Shown here piece by piece: positions 2,465 through 40,540 of a stretch of DNA of 64,000 bases (the first letter of the stretch is position 1; the number at the start of each line of letters is the position of its first letter). The translations under genes were made by a program, and so were the position numbers. The DNA comes from Polytrichum commune (taxonomy: Eukaryota > Streptophyta > Polytrichopsida > Polytrichales > Polytrichaceae), in contig OX485804.1 in the NCBI GenBank assembly GCA_950295325.1, forward strand, positions 59,074,429 to 59,138,428, written 5' to 3'. The notes below the pieces were generated by a model, which was given only the letters and a program-made list of their open reading frames with translations, had not been told where the DNA came from and searched no databases.

Positions 2465-3236
2465 TTCTTTTCTCATGTAACCCATCAAACATAAGATCCT
2501 CCTGGCTTTTGATGTTCAATATTGAACCTCGATTGGTGTCTCTAGTTTGAGCACATAATCTAGTTTGGCTCACTGAAATAAAGGTGACGATTAAGAAGAG
2601 TGACCGCATAAGAACCAAACACTCTATACATGAGTACATATTGTGGGCACTTCCAACTCCACGGTCCTAGTGATATATGATTTTTGGATGGGTTGGCAAG
2701 TTAAAGGAATGCTCATTCAACTAAACTATATGAATGACAAGGAATGCATGTGCTAAATTTTGCAATTAGAGTTCGCATGTGCTTGGGATCTCCATTGTAG
2801 GCGCAAAGCAACCACACGATAGATGGTGCTAAAACAAATACAAATTTGATTACGAGAATATCCACTACGCTCACAAGAGTCCCCCGTATCGGTTCCAAGT
2901 CATTACCAATAACATCTTGAACCCTCACAACTTTTGCATACAAAATCCAATAACACGTACTCTGGTGCATTGGAATCCCCATGTCATTTGCTAGTGACCA
3001 TCATTCATAACTTTAAAATATAACAATACCAGTGTTATACACAACACATGAAGTGATGGGTTTAACACTAAAGTGACTATGCAAGGCAGGCCAACGCACC
3101 TTATTTATTTCTCATTTTGCAGATGGGAACAAACATAAGAGGTTGCAATGCACAACAAAAACAAACAAACAAACAACGTACAAAATGCAAAAGTAAGCAC
3201 ATATGTACATTTAAGTAAGGCACGTGTACATTATCT
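2465..3236. other. Intergenic, nothing recognised
   Basis: AT-rich sequence without a convincing exon. It holds only the short dispersed motif at about 2645 and an A/C-rich run near 3155-3175. Confidence 0.5.
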
Positions 3237-20579: not shown

Positions 20580-21878
20580 ATGGATGCTTGGCGCGAACAA
20601 TTTAGGGCAAGCAGGCAACGCCTCCTCGATGATGATGATGAGGATGATGTTGTCCTGAATTTTGTATTGGGATTAGGGTTTGTGAATCCCGAACGAGCAT
20701 TACCATCAATTCCTGGTGGATCCCGGCCTGGAAAGTCCCTTAACATTGAGTGGTTTAGGGTTGAGATGCATCATCGCATGATTTCTGATTATTTTTGTGA
20801 CGAGCCGGTGTATGGGCCAAATTTGTTCCGTAGACGCTATCGCATGCAACGTTTACTTTTTTTGACAATCATGGAGAAGGTTTTTCAGCGAGACAATTAC
20901 TTTGTCCAGAAAGTAGATGCGTGTGGGTACGTAGGACTTTCATCGCACCAAAAGTGCACATCTGCGCTACGAATGCTTTGTCATGGTTTGTCGGGAGATG
21001 CCACGGATGAATATTGCCGAACAAGTGAAAGCACGGCTATGGAGTGTATGAAGAGATTTTGTTTGGCAATTAGGGCGGAGTTTGAAGATCATCATCTGAG
21101 GCAACCAACTCGGGAAGACTTTGAAAAACAACTGGCTATTAATCGTGATCGCGGGTTCCCCGGCATGTTCGCGTCTCTCGATTGCATGCACTATGTTTGG
21201 AAGAATTGTCCCGTTGCTTGGCAGGGGGATTTTGGAAACAAAGATGGCAATATGTCTATCATTTTGGAGGCTGTTGCGGATAGGGATTTGCACATCTGGC
21301 ATGTTTTTTTTGGATTGCCCGGTTCTAACAATGACTTGAATGTGCTTGATAGATCTCCCTTGATCCATAATATGCTCACTTCTGAGGCTCGTGATATGAG
21401 TTTTCAAGTGAACGGGAGCAATTATGATCGTTATTATTTGCTCACTGATGGAATCTATCCAGAGTGGGCATGTTTTATTCAAAGCATTCATGAACCTCAA
21501 GACGAGAAAATGGCTTACTTTGTTGAGCGGCAAGAAGCCGTGCGAAAAGATGTTGAACGATGTTTCGGAGTTTTACAAGCGCGGTTTGCGATTCTCCAAA
21601 ATCCATCCCGGTTTTGGAGCATAGACATCATTACAAACATCATGTTCGCATGTTGTATCATCCATAACATGATCATCGAAGACGAAGCGGACATAGAAGG
21701 ACTTGAAGACATCATTACGGAATTGAGACAAGATGTGGTACCCTTATGCCGTGGGTTGTCTTTTGAACAATTGATAGAAACCACAAAAGAGGTAGAAAAT
21801 CGCGACACTCATTTTGGACTAAGGGGTGACTTGATAGAACATTTGTGGGCACTCAAAGGTGCCATTCATATGGCATAA
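20580..21878 (+). CDS. PIF/Harbinger transposase (HARBI1-like DDE nuclease), intact
   Basis: A 432-codon frame without introns, the full length for plant Harbinger transposases. An acidic DDDDEDDVV segment is near the start. After about residue 100 come YVGLSSHQKCTSALRML and DEYCRTSEST, usual in the family. The DDE triad is visible: D in FASLDCMHYVWKNC (about residue 202), D in GLPGSNNDLNVL (about 251), and E in RKDVERCFGVLQARF (about 328). The enzyme would cut and paste DNA at the GAGCATC termini with TWA targets, in the nucleus, together with the Myb-like partner. I chose the ATG at 20580 because it leads directly into MDAWREQ and the upstream frame has stops. No broken residue is seen. Confidence 0.92.
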   Translation: MDAWREQFRASRQRLLDDDDEDDVVLNFVLGLGFVNPERALPSIPGGSRPGKSLNIEWFRVEMHHRMISDYFCDEPVYGPNLFRRRYRMQRLLFLTIMEKVFQRDNYFVQKVDACGYVGLSSHQKCTSALRMLCHGLSGDATDEYCRTSESTAMECMKRFCLAIRAEFEDHHLRQPTREDFEKQLAINRDRGFPGMFASLDCMHYVWKNCPVAWQGDFGNKDGNMSIILEAVADRDLHIWHVFFGLPGSNNDLNVLDRSPLIHNMLTSEARDMSFQVNGSNYDRYYLLTDGIYPEWACFIQSIHEPQDEKMAYFVERQEAVRKDVERCFGVLQARFAILQNPSRFWSIDIITNIMFACCIIHNMIIEDEADIEGLEDIITELRQDVVPLCRGLSFEQLIETTKEVENRDTHFGLRGDLIEHLWALKGAIHMA

Positions 21879-29735: not shown

Positions 29736-31155
<1,420 letters not shown>

Positions 31156-31793
31156 ATTTTATGTAACGTTCCGAAGAGAGTATTCAGTGAAAATGGTTGC
31201 ATTATCCTTTCAGACCAGGACGGTCGCGTTGGAGCTTCAATTGATGTACATGAATGAAGTTGTTACATCTCTGCGAGTTCCTCAGACAATGTCACAAATT
31301 TTCACATCAACCCTTGTTTGGGTTTCATCCTGGAAGGAGTGTATTGCCTAGGGTTTGGAGTCGCCTGTTTTTAACGTCAATATGGAGTTCTATTTATTTC
31401 TGGAGGCTATGAAAAGAAATTCTGAAAATCTGCACATTGAAGCGGAAGTTGTCTTGATAGTGCCCGTGAAATCGGAATGTAATTCTTGTAGGGTTCACTT
31501 CGTTTGACCTATGGATTTTAATTTATTCTGTGAGCTGCCTTATGTTCATGAGAGTGTTGCTTGTTGGTTGGCCTGTTTGTGATAATCCACGGGTTTTTCT
31601 CTAGTGTAAAGGAAGTGGTGTTTACTTCTCTAATAGGCTTATTTTGAGCGGCTTCGTGAGCTAAAGTATGCCGCTGAGTGTAAAATTGAATTTGGTAATA
31701 TCAAATTTGGGCGATTGGCGATTGTAGTAATTGTTTGGTACACTATTCCTATCTTTATTAGGATGATGCATAAGATACAGTGGAGTATGTGGA
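31156..31793 (+). other. RPL26 3' UTR and spacer to the snoRNA-like cluster
   Basis: The first 300-400 bp probably hold the RPL26 3' UTR; no clear poly(A) signal was fixed. No other gene is recognised. Confidence 0.4.
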
Positions 31794-31877
31794 TGCCAAG
31801 TGATGTGACCTAATGGTCGACCATGATGCGGACAGAGAAGGCTTAGCCATATCTGACAATTTGGTTTGCTGATGGCA
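31794..31877 (+). ncRNA. C/D-box snoRNA-like unit, copy 1
   Basis: 84 nt. Perfect terminal stem TGCCA/TGGCA, C-box-like GTGATGT right after the 5' stem, and D-box CTGA right before the 3' stem. The invariant core CATGATGCGGACAGA and a GACC..GGTC hairpin are shared with the other four units. Target RNA not identified. Confidence 0.65.
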
Positions 31878-31941
31878 ACAGGTGAGTTCTGAATAGTTAT
31901 TGACATTTTAGCTTCCGAGTGTTGTGTGAGTCGTTTACCTT

Positions 31942-32026
31942 GGCCAAGGGATGTGACCCATAAGGTCAACCATGATGCGGACAGAGGTGGCTATGCCATA
32001 TCTGATAAAACGGTTTGCTGATGGCT
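31942..32026 (+). ncRNA. C/D-box snoRNA-like unit, copy 2
   Basis: Most diverged unit. C-box-like GGGATGT, D-box CTGA before ATGGCT; the outer stem GGCCA/TGGCT keeps pairing with one G-T pair. Its hairpin loop is one base longer (GACC CATAA GGTC). Confidence 0.55.
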
Positions 32027-32244
32027 ATGTGGTCTATAATATTGGGTGACTGTACCCCTTGTCTGGGGTGGAGTTAATGCAACGTTTGGATCCTGTTAAT
32101 TTAATCTGAAGTTCTATAATGAAATGTAGAAGTACGTAACTAAGATGCTGTCAATTGAAATTTGTAAGTTTGTGTTGATGCTGTGTACTGTACTCGTTGT
32201 TGTGGTGAAGCTTTGTACATTCACGGAGCCTCGTGAATTTCTTA

Positions 32245-32328
32245 TGCCAAGTGATGTGACCTAATGGTCAACCATGATGCGGACAGAGGGCTGTGCCAAT
32301 ATCTGATAGAACCGGTTTGCTGATGGCA
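32245..32328 (+). ncRNA. C/D-box snoRNA-like unit, copy 3
   Basis: 84 nt with perfect TGCCA/TGGCA stem, GTGATGT and CTGA boxes, hairpin GACC TAAT GGTC and the common CATGATGCGGACAGA core. Confidence 0.65.
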
Positions 32329-32416
32329 CTTTCCTTTCTTTATATCCCTTGAGTTTTGCGAAGCTTTGTATATTCATCTATTTTTGAGTACTGTAATGGA
32401 GATGCCCTCTTTGCTA

Positions 32417-32500
32417 TGCCAATTGATGTGACCTTACGGTCAACCATGATGCGGACAGAAGGCTTTGCCGATATCTGATAAAACCGGTTTGCTGATGGCA
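32417..32500 (+). ncRNA. C/D-box snoRNA-like unit, copy 4
   Basis: 84 nt with perfect TGCCA/TGGCA stem, C-box-like TTGATGT, D-box CTGA, hairpin GACC TTAC GGTC and the common core. Confidence 0.65.
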
Positions 32501-32600
32501 TTTTGTTGTTATGATATCCTTTCAAATTGGTTGTTGCTCCAAAACCTTGGTTTTTCGTGGAACTGTCACTACTTAAATGTGGGTGAGCTCTGAATTTTCT

Positions 32601-32684
32601 TGCCAAGTGATATGACCTACTGGTCTACCATGATGCGGACAGAAGGCTTTGCCAATATCTGAAAAAATTGGTTTGCTGATGGCA
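32601..32684 (+). ncRNA. C/D-box snoRNA-like unit, copy 5
   Basis: 84 nt with perfect TGCCA/TGGCA stem, C-box-like GTGATAT, D-box CTGA, hairpin GACC TACT GGTC and the common core. Confidence 0.6.
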
Positions 32685-35200
32685 TTTTCCTGTTCTACTA
32701 TCCCTTTAAATTGGTTTGGTTTGGTTTCCTGCTCGTAAGGTTTGTGGGTTGCAGCATGAGAGAAGGTTCTTTGTTAGCCGTCCAGAACAAGTATTGACAT
32801 TGAGAATGTGGACCTGACGACCTCAGTATCTGCTCTAAGGAACTCCTGGTAGTCAATTGTGTAGTGACAATGTGTTTGCGCACTGGTGACACAATTTAAA
32901 CGATATTTACAACAATGGTGCATTTGGAAACGAATGCATTACTACAGCCATTTGGCTACCTTTTCAATTTTTACACTGGGTTGTATGTGAAACAATATGC
33001 ATACTTCTTTCACAAGGGAAGAAATGGAAGTACGTATGTACATAAATAGTTCACATGATGCACATTCTTCCACTTCTATGTCAGTCATCGTAGTACATTG
33101 AAGCAGGAGGCTTGTCCTTACTGGGAAATATTGAATGTGGATACAGTTACAAAGTTCCCATGATCGTTCTTGCTCTTACTCTTACGTCCCATGTACGTGA
33201 GTTACTTACAGATATCCCCTCGTAAGTGGTCGCCTTTAACTTTGTTGCATGTGTCAATGCCCGTAAGGACGCAAAAATGACGTGCGCAATACATGAACAA
33301 TATTCTGGGATTAACACTGACCTCTATTTGGAGCGCCAGTGGGATCATTTCAAGAGAAAAAGGAATCCTTCAAGGGAGAAGCACAATAAGAGGTGTATCG
33401 AAATCAACGCCGCTGAAATTTGGCACAATAATTGCATGCTGAATTTGAGAATGTTAATCACGCGAACATCATGCCATCCTAACGGTTTTGGTTGGCAACC
33501 CAGTTTTCACTCCAAATAAGCCCCTGGGTGTGTACCCATTCCAATATGAAAAGAGAAATTGTCTTTCAATTCAAGAATGAACTAACTTTTCCCGTTATTA
33601 ATACACTACTTGTTAGTAACCTCAATTTTTTTTTGGAAGTTACTAATTTCTTCTGAAAGTATATGTCTATTTTTAACGCAATCTTGTAAGTATGAGCTAT
33701 AGTGTTATTGCATATACTTATCATAATTGAAACTTTGTGATTATACATTGTTTATAAAGAAACCATGAAAGGTATTGCTACCGTATTAATGTGAAATCAA
33801 TACCAACAACTTTTCTTCTAGGTACAATTAAACCTGAGCTCTAGAAAACTTGCTTTCTTGCTGATCTACTGAAACCATACTCCACCTAGGTAATCAAGGG
33901 TTAATCTCTTTTAACTTTTGCATCTCTATTTTGATCTTGAAGCTTGAAACGACAAACTTGGATTTGCAATTACTGATTGATGAGATGATTCCCAAGCTGA
34001 TCCAGAAATATATGTGGAGTTGGAAAAGCCCACAGTATAAGGGCCACATACATTACGACTTGAGGTCCTATATTCAAGAGCAGAGAACTTTAATAGAAAA
34101 ACAATTTTACACATGCATTCGACTCTTCTTCCCTTGCGTTCTAAATCCTGGATCTAATCTTCAAAAATGTGAATAAAAATGTATTGATTAGTGCGTTGGT
34201 GAGATGATTGGTTTTGTTATCTGCAACTGGGACTTTGCTCCATCACCTGACAATAATTCTTGGATTGAATAGATTGGGAGAGACTTTGTGATGAATTGAA
34301 AAGAAAAATGATCCTTCTCTTTCACATCTAATAATATTTACGTTGCTACACTCTGATTTAAAAAAAATTCAACAACCACCTTCATTATTTGTGATTTTTA
34401 ATAACATGTCACAATTCCTGATTCTATCAAGGGCCAAATTGTGTGCAGAGTTGGAAATATACACAATATGGCCATGTTCCTTGAGTCAAAAGGAGCAAGT
34501 TCTACGCCGGCTTTGTGAAGGCTGCAATGTCTTGGTGTACTACATTGTGACCATACCAAACTTCTTTAGGAATGAACTATTGCATTAGTTATGATCTTTG
34601 ACTGGGATAGAAGATATTGTACATGTGCATAAGATCAGGAGCAAATTATTGACAATCCTGCCCACAATTGCCACATGTCAACATGTGAATGGCTGGAACA
34701 TCTTAGAAGTGGACATGGACAATGAACTTCGACAAAGACGCGTGCATGCAAACCGGACGAACATACACTTGATAAAAGTATCTCCTTTAAAACTGCATTG
34801 CATTTTACATAAAATAATGTAAAATACTCCAACTTATGAAACTGCAAGATGCGGAGTGCTTCCATAATGGCTTAAACTTAGGTGACTGCATTGTGATTCC
34901 AATAACCTTGGATCCTCCTCTTTTGTATAATTATAAGTAAGGGCGGCTACATAGCTTCCTGTCTTGCGAAGCTCTGCCGGACGCCACCGGATGCGAACGC
35001 AAACGCAAACGCAGACGCGCAGTCACGGTGGCGAACCAAGCATCGGGAGCGTAGGCTGCCTTGTGGACTCATCCGGTCGCCACCGGCCGCAAACGCCGAG
35101 TAACGGCGGCGAGGCAAGCATCAAAAGCAAAGGCTGGGTGGGGGACTTGCTCGCCGGCGTCCTTCCACCAGCCTTCCTTGTGTCCGATGCAACTGTGGAG
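32685..35200. other. Intergenic, no supported gene
   Basis: AT-rich to about 34930, then a GC-richer block with CGCAAACGC and CACCGG words (34970-35180), which may be the promoter and distal leader of the TAXIMIN gene. No exon is supported. Confidence 0.4.
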
Positions 35201-38821: not shown

Positions 38822-39517
38822 TTACACTCCAGATGGCACTGGCTTGCCTGCAAACCAAGACATGTCAGAAAACAGACCCTTGGAGGTTCAACATCTTTCC
38901 GGTGCTAACCCAACATTTAGCTTATGATGATATCATTCAACGTTAATTGATCTCATAAGTCAACCTTTCAGCTCTTGCAACTACAGAATATAGAAGCAAA
39001 AGACTAAAATCATCGTAACCCTATATCTTGTAGGCAATATTCATTCAATGTTGTAGTTTGATGTGATTGAGTCAATGTGAAAGCAGTGGCAATGATAGGT
39101 ATGAATGAATGGATCCAGAGGTTTGTGACAAAAGAAGAATTTGTACATACCACCGCATTTGAAGCCTTTGGGGACCCAGCGCTTGCATTTCTTGGGCAAG
39201 CTGAGGGCAGCGTCCAGGTTCAGGGTGATGGGCAGATGGCCAGACTTGACATGGGTGCACAGGCAGGAGGCATCCGTCCTCCTCACCCCAGCACAACACT
39301 CCTTGGAAGGGGAAGGGGGCAGAGGCCCTGTGATGGCAGGGATACAAGGGATCAGGGGCTTCAGAGTGTCCATGTTGCAAGGGGGGTGCTGCCTTGGCTT
39401 GTTAACAGGCTTGTGGGCCGGGGGCTTCTTAGATGCTCCCTCCACCTCTGCTGCCATGCTCACTGCCAGCATCAGCACCAGCAGGGCACAGAGTACAGAC
39501 CTGGTCTCAGACGCCAT
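38822..39517 (-). CDS. Secreted DIR1-like non-specific lipid-transfer protein, two exons
   Basis: Exon 1 39151-39517, intron 38848-39150 (GTATGT..CAG), exon 2 38822-38847 (ends GKPVPSGV). A signal peptide is clear: MASETRSVLCALLVLMLAVS up to about residue 28. Next a Lys/Pro linker (KKPPAHKPVNKP), then the eight-cysteine motif C-X10-C-X15-CC-X9-C-X-C-X23-C-X9-C, giving the fold of LTP/2S-albumin proteins. Spacing and the LNLDAALSLPKKC segment resemble DIR1-like LTPs, which bind lipids in the apoplast; DIR1 itself is linked to systemic resistance. I start at the Met before SETRS because the upstream in-frame Met adds only a polar stretch. The linker is unusual for DIR1. Gene appears intact. Confidence 0.9.
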
Positions 39518-40540
39518 AGCTGGTCGATGAGATATAAATCGGTCAGCTGCAGCCAATGTAAGCCCACATGAGAAATTTAGTATCTTACAAGAACAGCCGC
39601 ATCAAAGTGTCAATTAGTGGTTTCACAGAGCTAATTAGGAGAATCTGATGGTGGTCTCTGCCACTTCCAGGTCTGTAGGCCTCACTCTGAATCCATAAGA
39701 TACAATACTCAAGAAACATCGGCTAGCTGACTCATCATGCAGTAGTACCTCGATCGTGGTCCTACATGTAACATGCCCAATTTATCAGAGAAATGGAATC
39801 TCAGAACAGCCACATCAAGGGGATCAAAAAGTAGTTTCATCTGGTGGTAATTTCTACCCACTTCCAGGTCTCGCTGCCTAATTCTGAATCCATAGAAACA
39901 ATACTCTACAAATTGAGAGCTAGTTAACTATGAGGCGAATCTGCATGTGGTTTCTGTCCTCCCCAGGTCTATCTGTCTAATTCCGAGCCCATGACAAGAA
40001 CACAGCTCCAGAAACAAACAGGAGCTAGCTGCTAGGTGTTTCAGATTAAGCAACTGCAGCTGAATATTGTTTCTAGATACTCCACCATACATAAGTCCCA
40101 CGTGCACAAAACAATCACAAAGCTCACAAGCAGTGGCATCACTAATCAAAGGCATGTCCCACCCTCATATGTACGTGAGCTTTACATTTGAAGTTTGTGC
40201 AGAAGGGAAGGGCATCCCCTCTGCCTCATACATTCAGACCTCATAAGGTACACCTCCAGAAACAAAACAGAAGTGAGTCCTCAAGAATGACATGCAGAAG
40301 ATGATCACGAGGAGGGGATTTCTAGATCCTAGAAATAAATCAAGTGCAGGCGCAAGCTGATGATTTCTGCGTACCCAACTTCCATGTAAGTGGTGCCTCA
40401 CATTACCTCAATGGAGAGCACTTGGGACGACTGCGATCGATGCGATAGAAGATTGGGGGAGTATGAACAGATGAGGAGATCTGCGAGTTGTAAGTGAGTG
40501 ATGAGCTAATCTTTAGCTTTTTATATGGCAGATGGTGGAA
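39518..40540 (-). other. Upstream region of the lipid-transfer gene with diverged repeats
   Basis: Three or four diverged units share a CCACTTCCAGGTCT or CCCCAGGTCT word followed by AATTCTGAATCCAT-like words and a CAATACTC end (about 39661, 39858, 39960 and perhaps 40225). They sit between the probable TATA box and the start codon, so the leader may be long or contain an intron. Confidence 0.45.
40519..40525 (-). promoter_or_regulatory. Possible TATA box of the lipid-transfer gene
   Basis: TATAAAA on the minus strand within CCATATAAAAAGCT, about 1 kb before the start codon. It needs a long or spliced leader to serve the gene. Confidence 0.35.

Follow-up and report, generated by a model that had tools for sequence, protein, structure and literature searches.

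According to Table 1 of PMC8053127, methylation of C1850 in Arabidopsis 25S rRNA is assigned to SnoR149, and the available text of the same paper describes hid1, a mutant of the SnoR149-containing cluster, in which C1850 methylation is greatly decreased. For 25S C1847, that text reports a bulged SnoR129 duplex as validated, and it rates the paper's own two 8-bp duplex assignments as weak and less certain. It also presents box C/D snoRNA genes as commonly clustered and multi-copy in plants. The array described here, consisting of five units on the forward strand (positions 31794-32684), lies in a Polytrichum commune window (G000:C2:59074429-59138428, the whole 64-kb stretch of DNA analysed, to which positions given without a contig refer) within a 407.8-Mb assembly. 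It shares with the box C/D class this clustered, multi-copy arrangement, as well as the terminal stem, a C-like box, the D box and a length of approximately 84 nt. It differs from the class in its C boxes, which end in T in all copies, in its degenerate D' box, and in the extra hairpins that flank its guide.

A tandem array of five units behind RPL26

The five units measure 84, 85, 84, 84 and 84 nt and are separated by spacers of 64, 218, 88 and 100 nt (Table 1), which confirms the number, location and lengths (four of 84 nt and one of about 85 nt) given in the original prediction. The array was also correctly placed behind RPL26 on the same strand: the stop codon of this gene ends at position 31155, 638 nt before unit 1, and the RPL26 translation matches Pfam PF16906 (Ribosomal_L26) with an E value of 4.7e-37. 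The interval between the gene and unit 1 holds a telo-box-like motif, AAACCCTA, of a kind that occurs in the promoters of plant snoRNA and ribosomal-protein genes. This motif was found eight times in the window against 2.18 expected, and it is considered a possible, weak promoter element and not evidence of function. Further away in the window, a 432-aa open frame on the forward strand (20580-21878) looks by eye like a PIF/Harbinger-type transposase, and a 171-aa open frame on the reverse strand (39041-39556) looks by eye like a plant lipid-transfer-type protein.

Table 1. Positions of the array units, their predicted parts and the upstream features in the window
Feature	Position	Strand	Details
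RPL26 coding exons	30434-30546, 30679-30820, 30983-31155	+	splice sites placed by eye; first codons in a further upstream exon
Telo-box-like AAACCCTA	31349-31356	-	between RPL26 and unit 1
Unit 1, predicted C/D snoRNA gene	31794-31877	+	strict C/D layout
Unit 1, stem and boxes	31794-31798 / 31873-31877; 31800-31806; 31869-31872	+	stem TGCCA / TGGCA; C GTGATGT; D CTGA
Unit 1, inner parts	31807-31818; 31820-31832; 31833-31836; 31840-31848; 31853-31859	+	hairpin; D' guide; D' CAGA; hairpin GGC/GCC; C' CTGACAA
Unit 2	31942-32026	+	85 nt; relaxed layout test only; stem GGCCA / TGGCT
Unit 2, parts	31948-31954; 31955-31967; 31969-31981; 31982-31985; 32002-32008; 32018-32021	+	C-like GGGATGT; hairpin; guide; D'; C' CTGATAA; D
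Unit 3	32245-32328	+	strict C/D layout
Unit 3, parts	32251-32257; 32258-32269; 32271-32283; 32284-32287; 32303-32309; 32320-32323	+	C GTGATGT; hairpin; guide; D'; C' CTGATAG; D
Unit 4	32417-32500	+	relaxed layout test only
Unit 4, parts	32423-32429; 32430-32441; 32443-32455; 32456-32459; 32475-32481; 32492-32495	+	C-like TTGATGT; hairpin; guide; D'; C' CTGATAA; D
Unit 5	32601-32684	+	relaxed layout test only
Unit 5, parts	32607-32613; 32614-32625; 32627-32639; 32640-32643; 32659-32665; 32676-32679	+	C-like GTGATAT; hairpin; guide; D'; C' CTGAAAA; D

The core CATGATGCGGACAGA, which had been described as invariant, is exact in all five units. When the 407.8-Mb assembly was searched for this core as an exact pattern, five forward and no reverse matches emerged, all located in the array, and the control, the same pattern read backwards, gave none in either orientation. 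BLAST of the genome with the majority unit sequence at E values up to 10 likewise recovered just the five array units. Furthermore, the genome was searched for sequences complementary to the 17-nt core, allowing at most three mismatches; among the matches listed, the five units were the only places without a mismatch, and no listed match had exactly one. Since neither the exact pattern nor BLAST at E values up to 10 revealed further dispersed copies outside the array, a transposon origin is disfavoured.

Conservation and box architecture of the units

Pairwise identity between units ranges from 77 to 92%, whereas the 60-nt flanks share 15-52% (15-49% for the 5' flanks and 22-52% for the 3' flanks). 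The unit alignment comprises 86 columns, 59 of them invariant, and its longest invariant run, 17 columns corresponding to ACCATGATGCGGACAGA, spans the guide and the D' box; runs of at least 17 invariant columns arose in 1913 of 100,000 column shuffles. The original prediction had called the spacers unrelated, and the flanks have indeed diverged overall, but the 3' flanks of units 3-5 still show a similarity of 43-52% across 60 nt, and a repeat finder stretched the similarity of these three units to 116 nt at 82-85%. This residual similarity suggests that the array grew by local tandem duplication and that the flanks later diverged far beyond the units.

It is the contrast between conserved units and diverged flanks that carries the case for selection. 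The GACC/GGTC hairpin, from which selection on the RNA had originally been argued, is present in all five units with the loops reported (TAAT, CATAA, TAAT, TTAC and TACT), but the argument drawn from it is weaker than proposed because its stem pairs never vary. The 16 named pairs of the units showed 100% pairing, 15 of them being invariant and one changed on both sides (U-A to G-U). No covariation support was obtained, as this single two-sided change was equalled by 125 of 500 shuffles, and the single-strand folds, with z values of -0.8 to -1.2, displayed no unusual stability.

A pairing terminal stem of 5 bp, including one G-U pair in unit 2, and a CTGA D box directly preceding the 3' stem arm were found in every unit, in agreement with the earlier description. 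The stem arms read TGCCA and TGGCA, except in unit 2 (Table 1), and the stem sits directly outside boxes C and D in all five cases. The proposed C-like box RTGATGT is exact in units 1 and 3 but altered in units 2, 4 and 5; its imperfection with respect to RUGAUGA, a final T, extends to all five units as noted before, and by eye the C boxes of units 1-4 retain the kink-turn core's GAUG. The D' box, CAGA, is degenerate with respect to CTGA, and it is followed by a small GGC/GCC hairpin and by a C'-like CTGATAA, with variants in some units.

A strict layout test was defined by RTGATG, a 5-bp stem, 0-1 base between stem and box, and a CTGA abutting the 3' stem arm. When the 64-kb window was scanned on both strands, this test returned units 1 and 3 only, and the same layout arose in 8 of 20,000 dinucleotide shuffles of unit 1 and in 8 of 20,000 of unit 3. 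A relaxed layout test detected all five units; in a separate relaxed scan of positions 30001-34500, covering both strands, units 1, 3 and 5 alone were recovered and the spacers were empty.

The box-and-stem geometry, together with the conservation of the units over their flanks, points to the box C/D class, and the fact that no other genomic copy was found speaks against a transposon. The array is real and conserved, and the class to which its tandem units very probably belong is an ordinary one. Judged by these sequence features, which support the snoRNA-like identity first suggested, the units can be regarded with high probability as genes for box C/D snoRNAs whose C boxes are imperfect. Leaving the family unassigned proved right as far as Rfam is concerned, with no match in the units: its covariance models gave nothing at the gathering score in the window, and the sole match at E values up to 10 over positions 31000-33300 was mir-1, outside the units. 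Among the matches listed in the literature searched, where most subscription papers were beyond reach, no report of the array was found, and a search with the core letters yielded matches unrelated by title. The accessible portion of PMC12218528 does not mention L26, nor does that of PMC5122169 mention snoR149.

A predicted guide for 25S C1850

One possible reading of the invariant core, made before any look at 25S, is a guide, ACCATGATGCGGA, that terminates at the degenerate D' box. The target set was a working copy of Arabidopsis 18S and 25S rRNA, not the rRNA of the plant itself, and it excluded 5.8S and the 3' end of 25S. The 18S letters of this copy agree with 35 of 35 Nm sites in the accessible Table 1 of PMC8053127, and its 25S agrees, at an offset of 0 or +1, with all 72 in-range sites of the 74 given there.

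Under the D'+5 rule, 25S C1850 was the top site for the three guide variants, and the next sites scored just 0.5 lower. The predicted duplex consists of 8 contiguous bp between guide positions 2-9 and CCGCATCA, a bulged A at guide position 10 and 3 bp formed by ACC with GGT; unit 1 gains one more pair. Duplex energies calculated in 22-nt windows at every second base returned the same structure, the C1850 site being best at -17.2 kcal/mol and the next at -16.1 kcal/mol. Shuffled guides performed as well as the real one in 887 of 2000 cases by run length and in 28 of 200 by energy, so the complementarity by itself is not significant; the top site coincided with a listed Nm for just 48 of 2000 shuffles. 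The initial scan by run length placed position 622 of the 18S on C22, a doubtful contig, level with C1850 for units 2-4. When compared with spliceosomal RNAs of the plant itself, the core paired over at most 7 bp with U2 (two copies) and showed no run of six or more with U5 or U6 (one copy each). The original prediction had found no target and considered an orphan snoRNA; with the core taken for a D' guide, 25S C1850 comes out as the best rRNA site and a putative target, so that an orphan drops from first place. If the units belong to the C/D class, we give C1850 an even chance of being the guide target.

Searching the genome for 5.8S led to two places, contig G000:C22 (L016, L017) and C5:7938227. 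Contig C22 carries 18S, 5.8S and the start of 25S, as well as 5000 bases of N, and is a possible contaminant; by eye, neither its 18S nor its 25S resembles that of a plant, and it was dropped as the rDNA of the plant and as a target. An 18-nt match between unit 5 and a spacer repeat of C22 was also discarded, as it involves one unit, is A/T-rich and falls in a doubtful contig. The 25S 3' query gave 24 matches across large contigs. Six loci with pieces of 25S were scanned with Rfam; four start at LSU model position 2391, one starts at 3007 and one had no match. The loci L024, L025, L027 and L029 (contigs C6, C4, C1 and C3) possibly represent a repeated element that arose from 25S rRNA. In the genome, GCATCAGGT is kept by two decayed 25S copies, whose readings, CTCATAACTGCATCAGGTCTCC and GTGCATCAGGTTTCC, agree with the usual ACCGCATCAGGTCTCC. 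Matches to snRNAs in the genome numbered at least 46 for U2, at least 43 for U6 and at least 47 for U5, many of them close together, and four U5 matches stand in tandem with a step of approximately 850 bp at G000:C2:7596393-7599059 (L067-L069).

Two patterns expected of a C1850 guide, CTGATGCGGNCNGA and TGATGCGGNCTGA, had 26 and 7 matches in the genome, respectively, at 30 distinct places outside the array. The relaxed test that finds all five units detected a C/D layout at none of these 30 places, so no competing C1850 guide of those two forms emerged, and eight of the alternative loci examined with Rfam gave no match. A locus with longer complementarity to C1850 (L039, CTGATGCGGACAGA) was rejected, being by eye an apparent intron start and devoid of a C/D layout.

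Proposed function and alternative explanations

We propose that the five C/D snoRNA genes in tandem would guide methylation of 25S C1850. The array would be transcribed with RPL26 or just behind it, and the transcripts would be processed to RNAs of approximately 84 nt, in which the terminal stem and boxes C and D may form a kink-turn carrying the core proteins. The D' half-site would then present the invariant guide ACCATGATGCGGA and, by the D+5 rule, could direct fibrillarin to 2'-O-methylate the 25S C in ACCG-C-AUCAGGU (C1850 in Arabidopsis numbering), a step that would depend on weak pairing. Because of the near-tied sites and the caution expressed in the available text of PMC8053127 about 8-bp duplexes, we place this complete proposal, deduced from sequence, slightly short of an even chance.

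There is a substantial possibility that the units are C/D snoRNAs that do not target C1850, either orphans acting on another RNA or structural or processing snoRNAs that bind a pre-rRNA spacer through the core. Such a function would fit a C1850 pairing whose strength shuffled guides often match, the imperfection of the C and D' boxes and the lack of an Rfam family; it sits less well with a top rRNA site that coincides, at exactly D'+5, with a plant methylation site known from Table 1 of PMC8053127, and with U2, U5 and U6 of the plant matching the core no better. It is improbable that the guiding is done instead by the diverged stretches preceding the D box (AATTTGGTTTG, AAACGGTTTG, GAACCGGTTTG, AAACCGGTTTG and AAATTGGTTTG), each unit directing a different site. 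These stretches are among the least conserved parts of the units while GGTTTGCTGA is kept, but no D+5 rRNA partner common to all units was found in the working copy of Arabidopsis 25S and the doubtful C22 18S, and the best runs differ by unit, most of them including G-U pairs.

The invariance of ATGATGC and ATATCTGA, and the ability of CAGA/TCTG and ACC/GGT to pair in all five units, would also be compatible with an internal kink-turn nested in the core and formed by ATGATGC and the first CTGA, as in a non-guide structured RNA or a variant snoRNA whose internal pair is reversed. We regard this as very improbable, given that by eye the required stem directly outside the first CTGA is lacking, that no covariation was seen and that fold stability is ordinary. 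Scant credence is likewise given to an unexpressed, decaying tandem repeat or transposon fragment: three of the five C boxes are degenerate, the layout is tandem and the flanks of units 3-5 are related, yet the units are much more conserved than their flanks, no extra genomic copy was found and the geometry is retained in all five units under the relaxed test.

Comparison with known plant snoRNAs

With SnoR149 of the HID1 cluster, the array would share the box C/D class, the polycistronic setting described in the available text of PMC8053127 and, by prediction, the same 25S nucleotide, C1850. The two are likened by target and setting, not by the SnoR149 sequence. They differ in their surroundings, as SnoR149 is clustered with the HID1 ncRNA, SnoR39BYa and SnoR21.1 according to that text, whereas the array consists of five copies behind RPL26. 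It might be, although we consider it rather unlikely, that a lineage-specific C/D family took over 25S Cm1850 through a D' guide that pairs with a bulge, together with a degenerate D' box, and was amplified fivefold behind RPL26, either as an unrelated replacement of SnoR149 or as a strongly diverged SnoR149. With the array comes a family of plant C/D snoRNAs that had no report among the matches listed in the literature searched and whose predicted target is testable, and it shows that such a family can be without an Rfam match.

SnoR128/129, which target the neighbouring 25S C1847, resemble the array in that their duplex forms only with one base bulged out on the rRNA side (A1851), as described in the accessible part of PMC8053127, and the bulged SnoR129 duplex thus provides a precedent for a bulge in the array guide. 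Their site lies three bases off, their duplex extends over 13-14 bp, and the bulge is located in the rRNA, whereas that predicted for the array is located in the guide. Should the bulged guide work, the array would join SnoR129 as another plant example in which methylation within this stretch of 25S rRNA is directed by an imperfect duplex.
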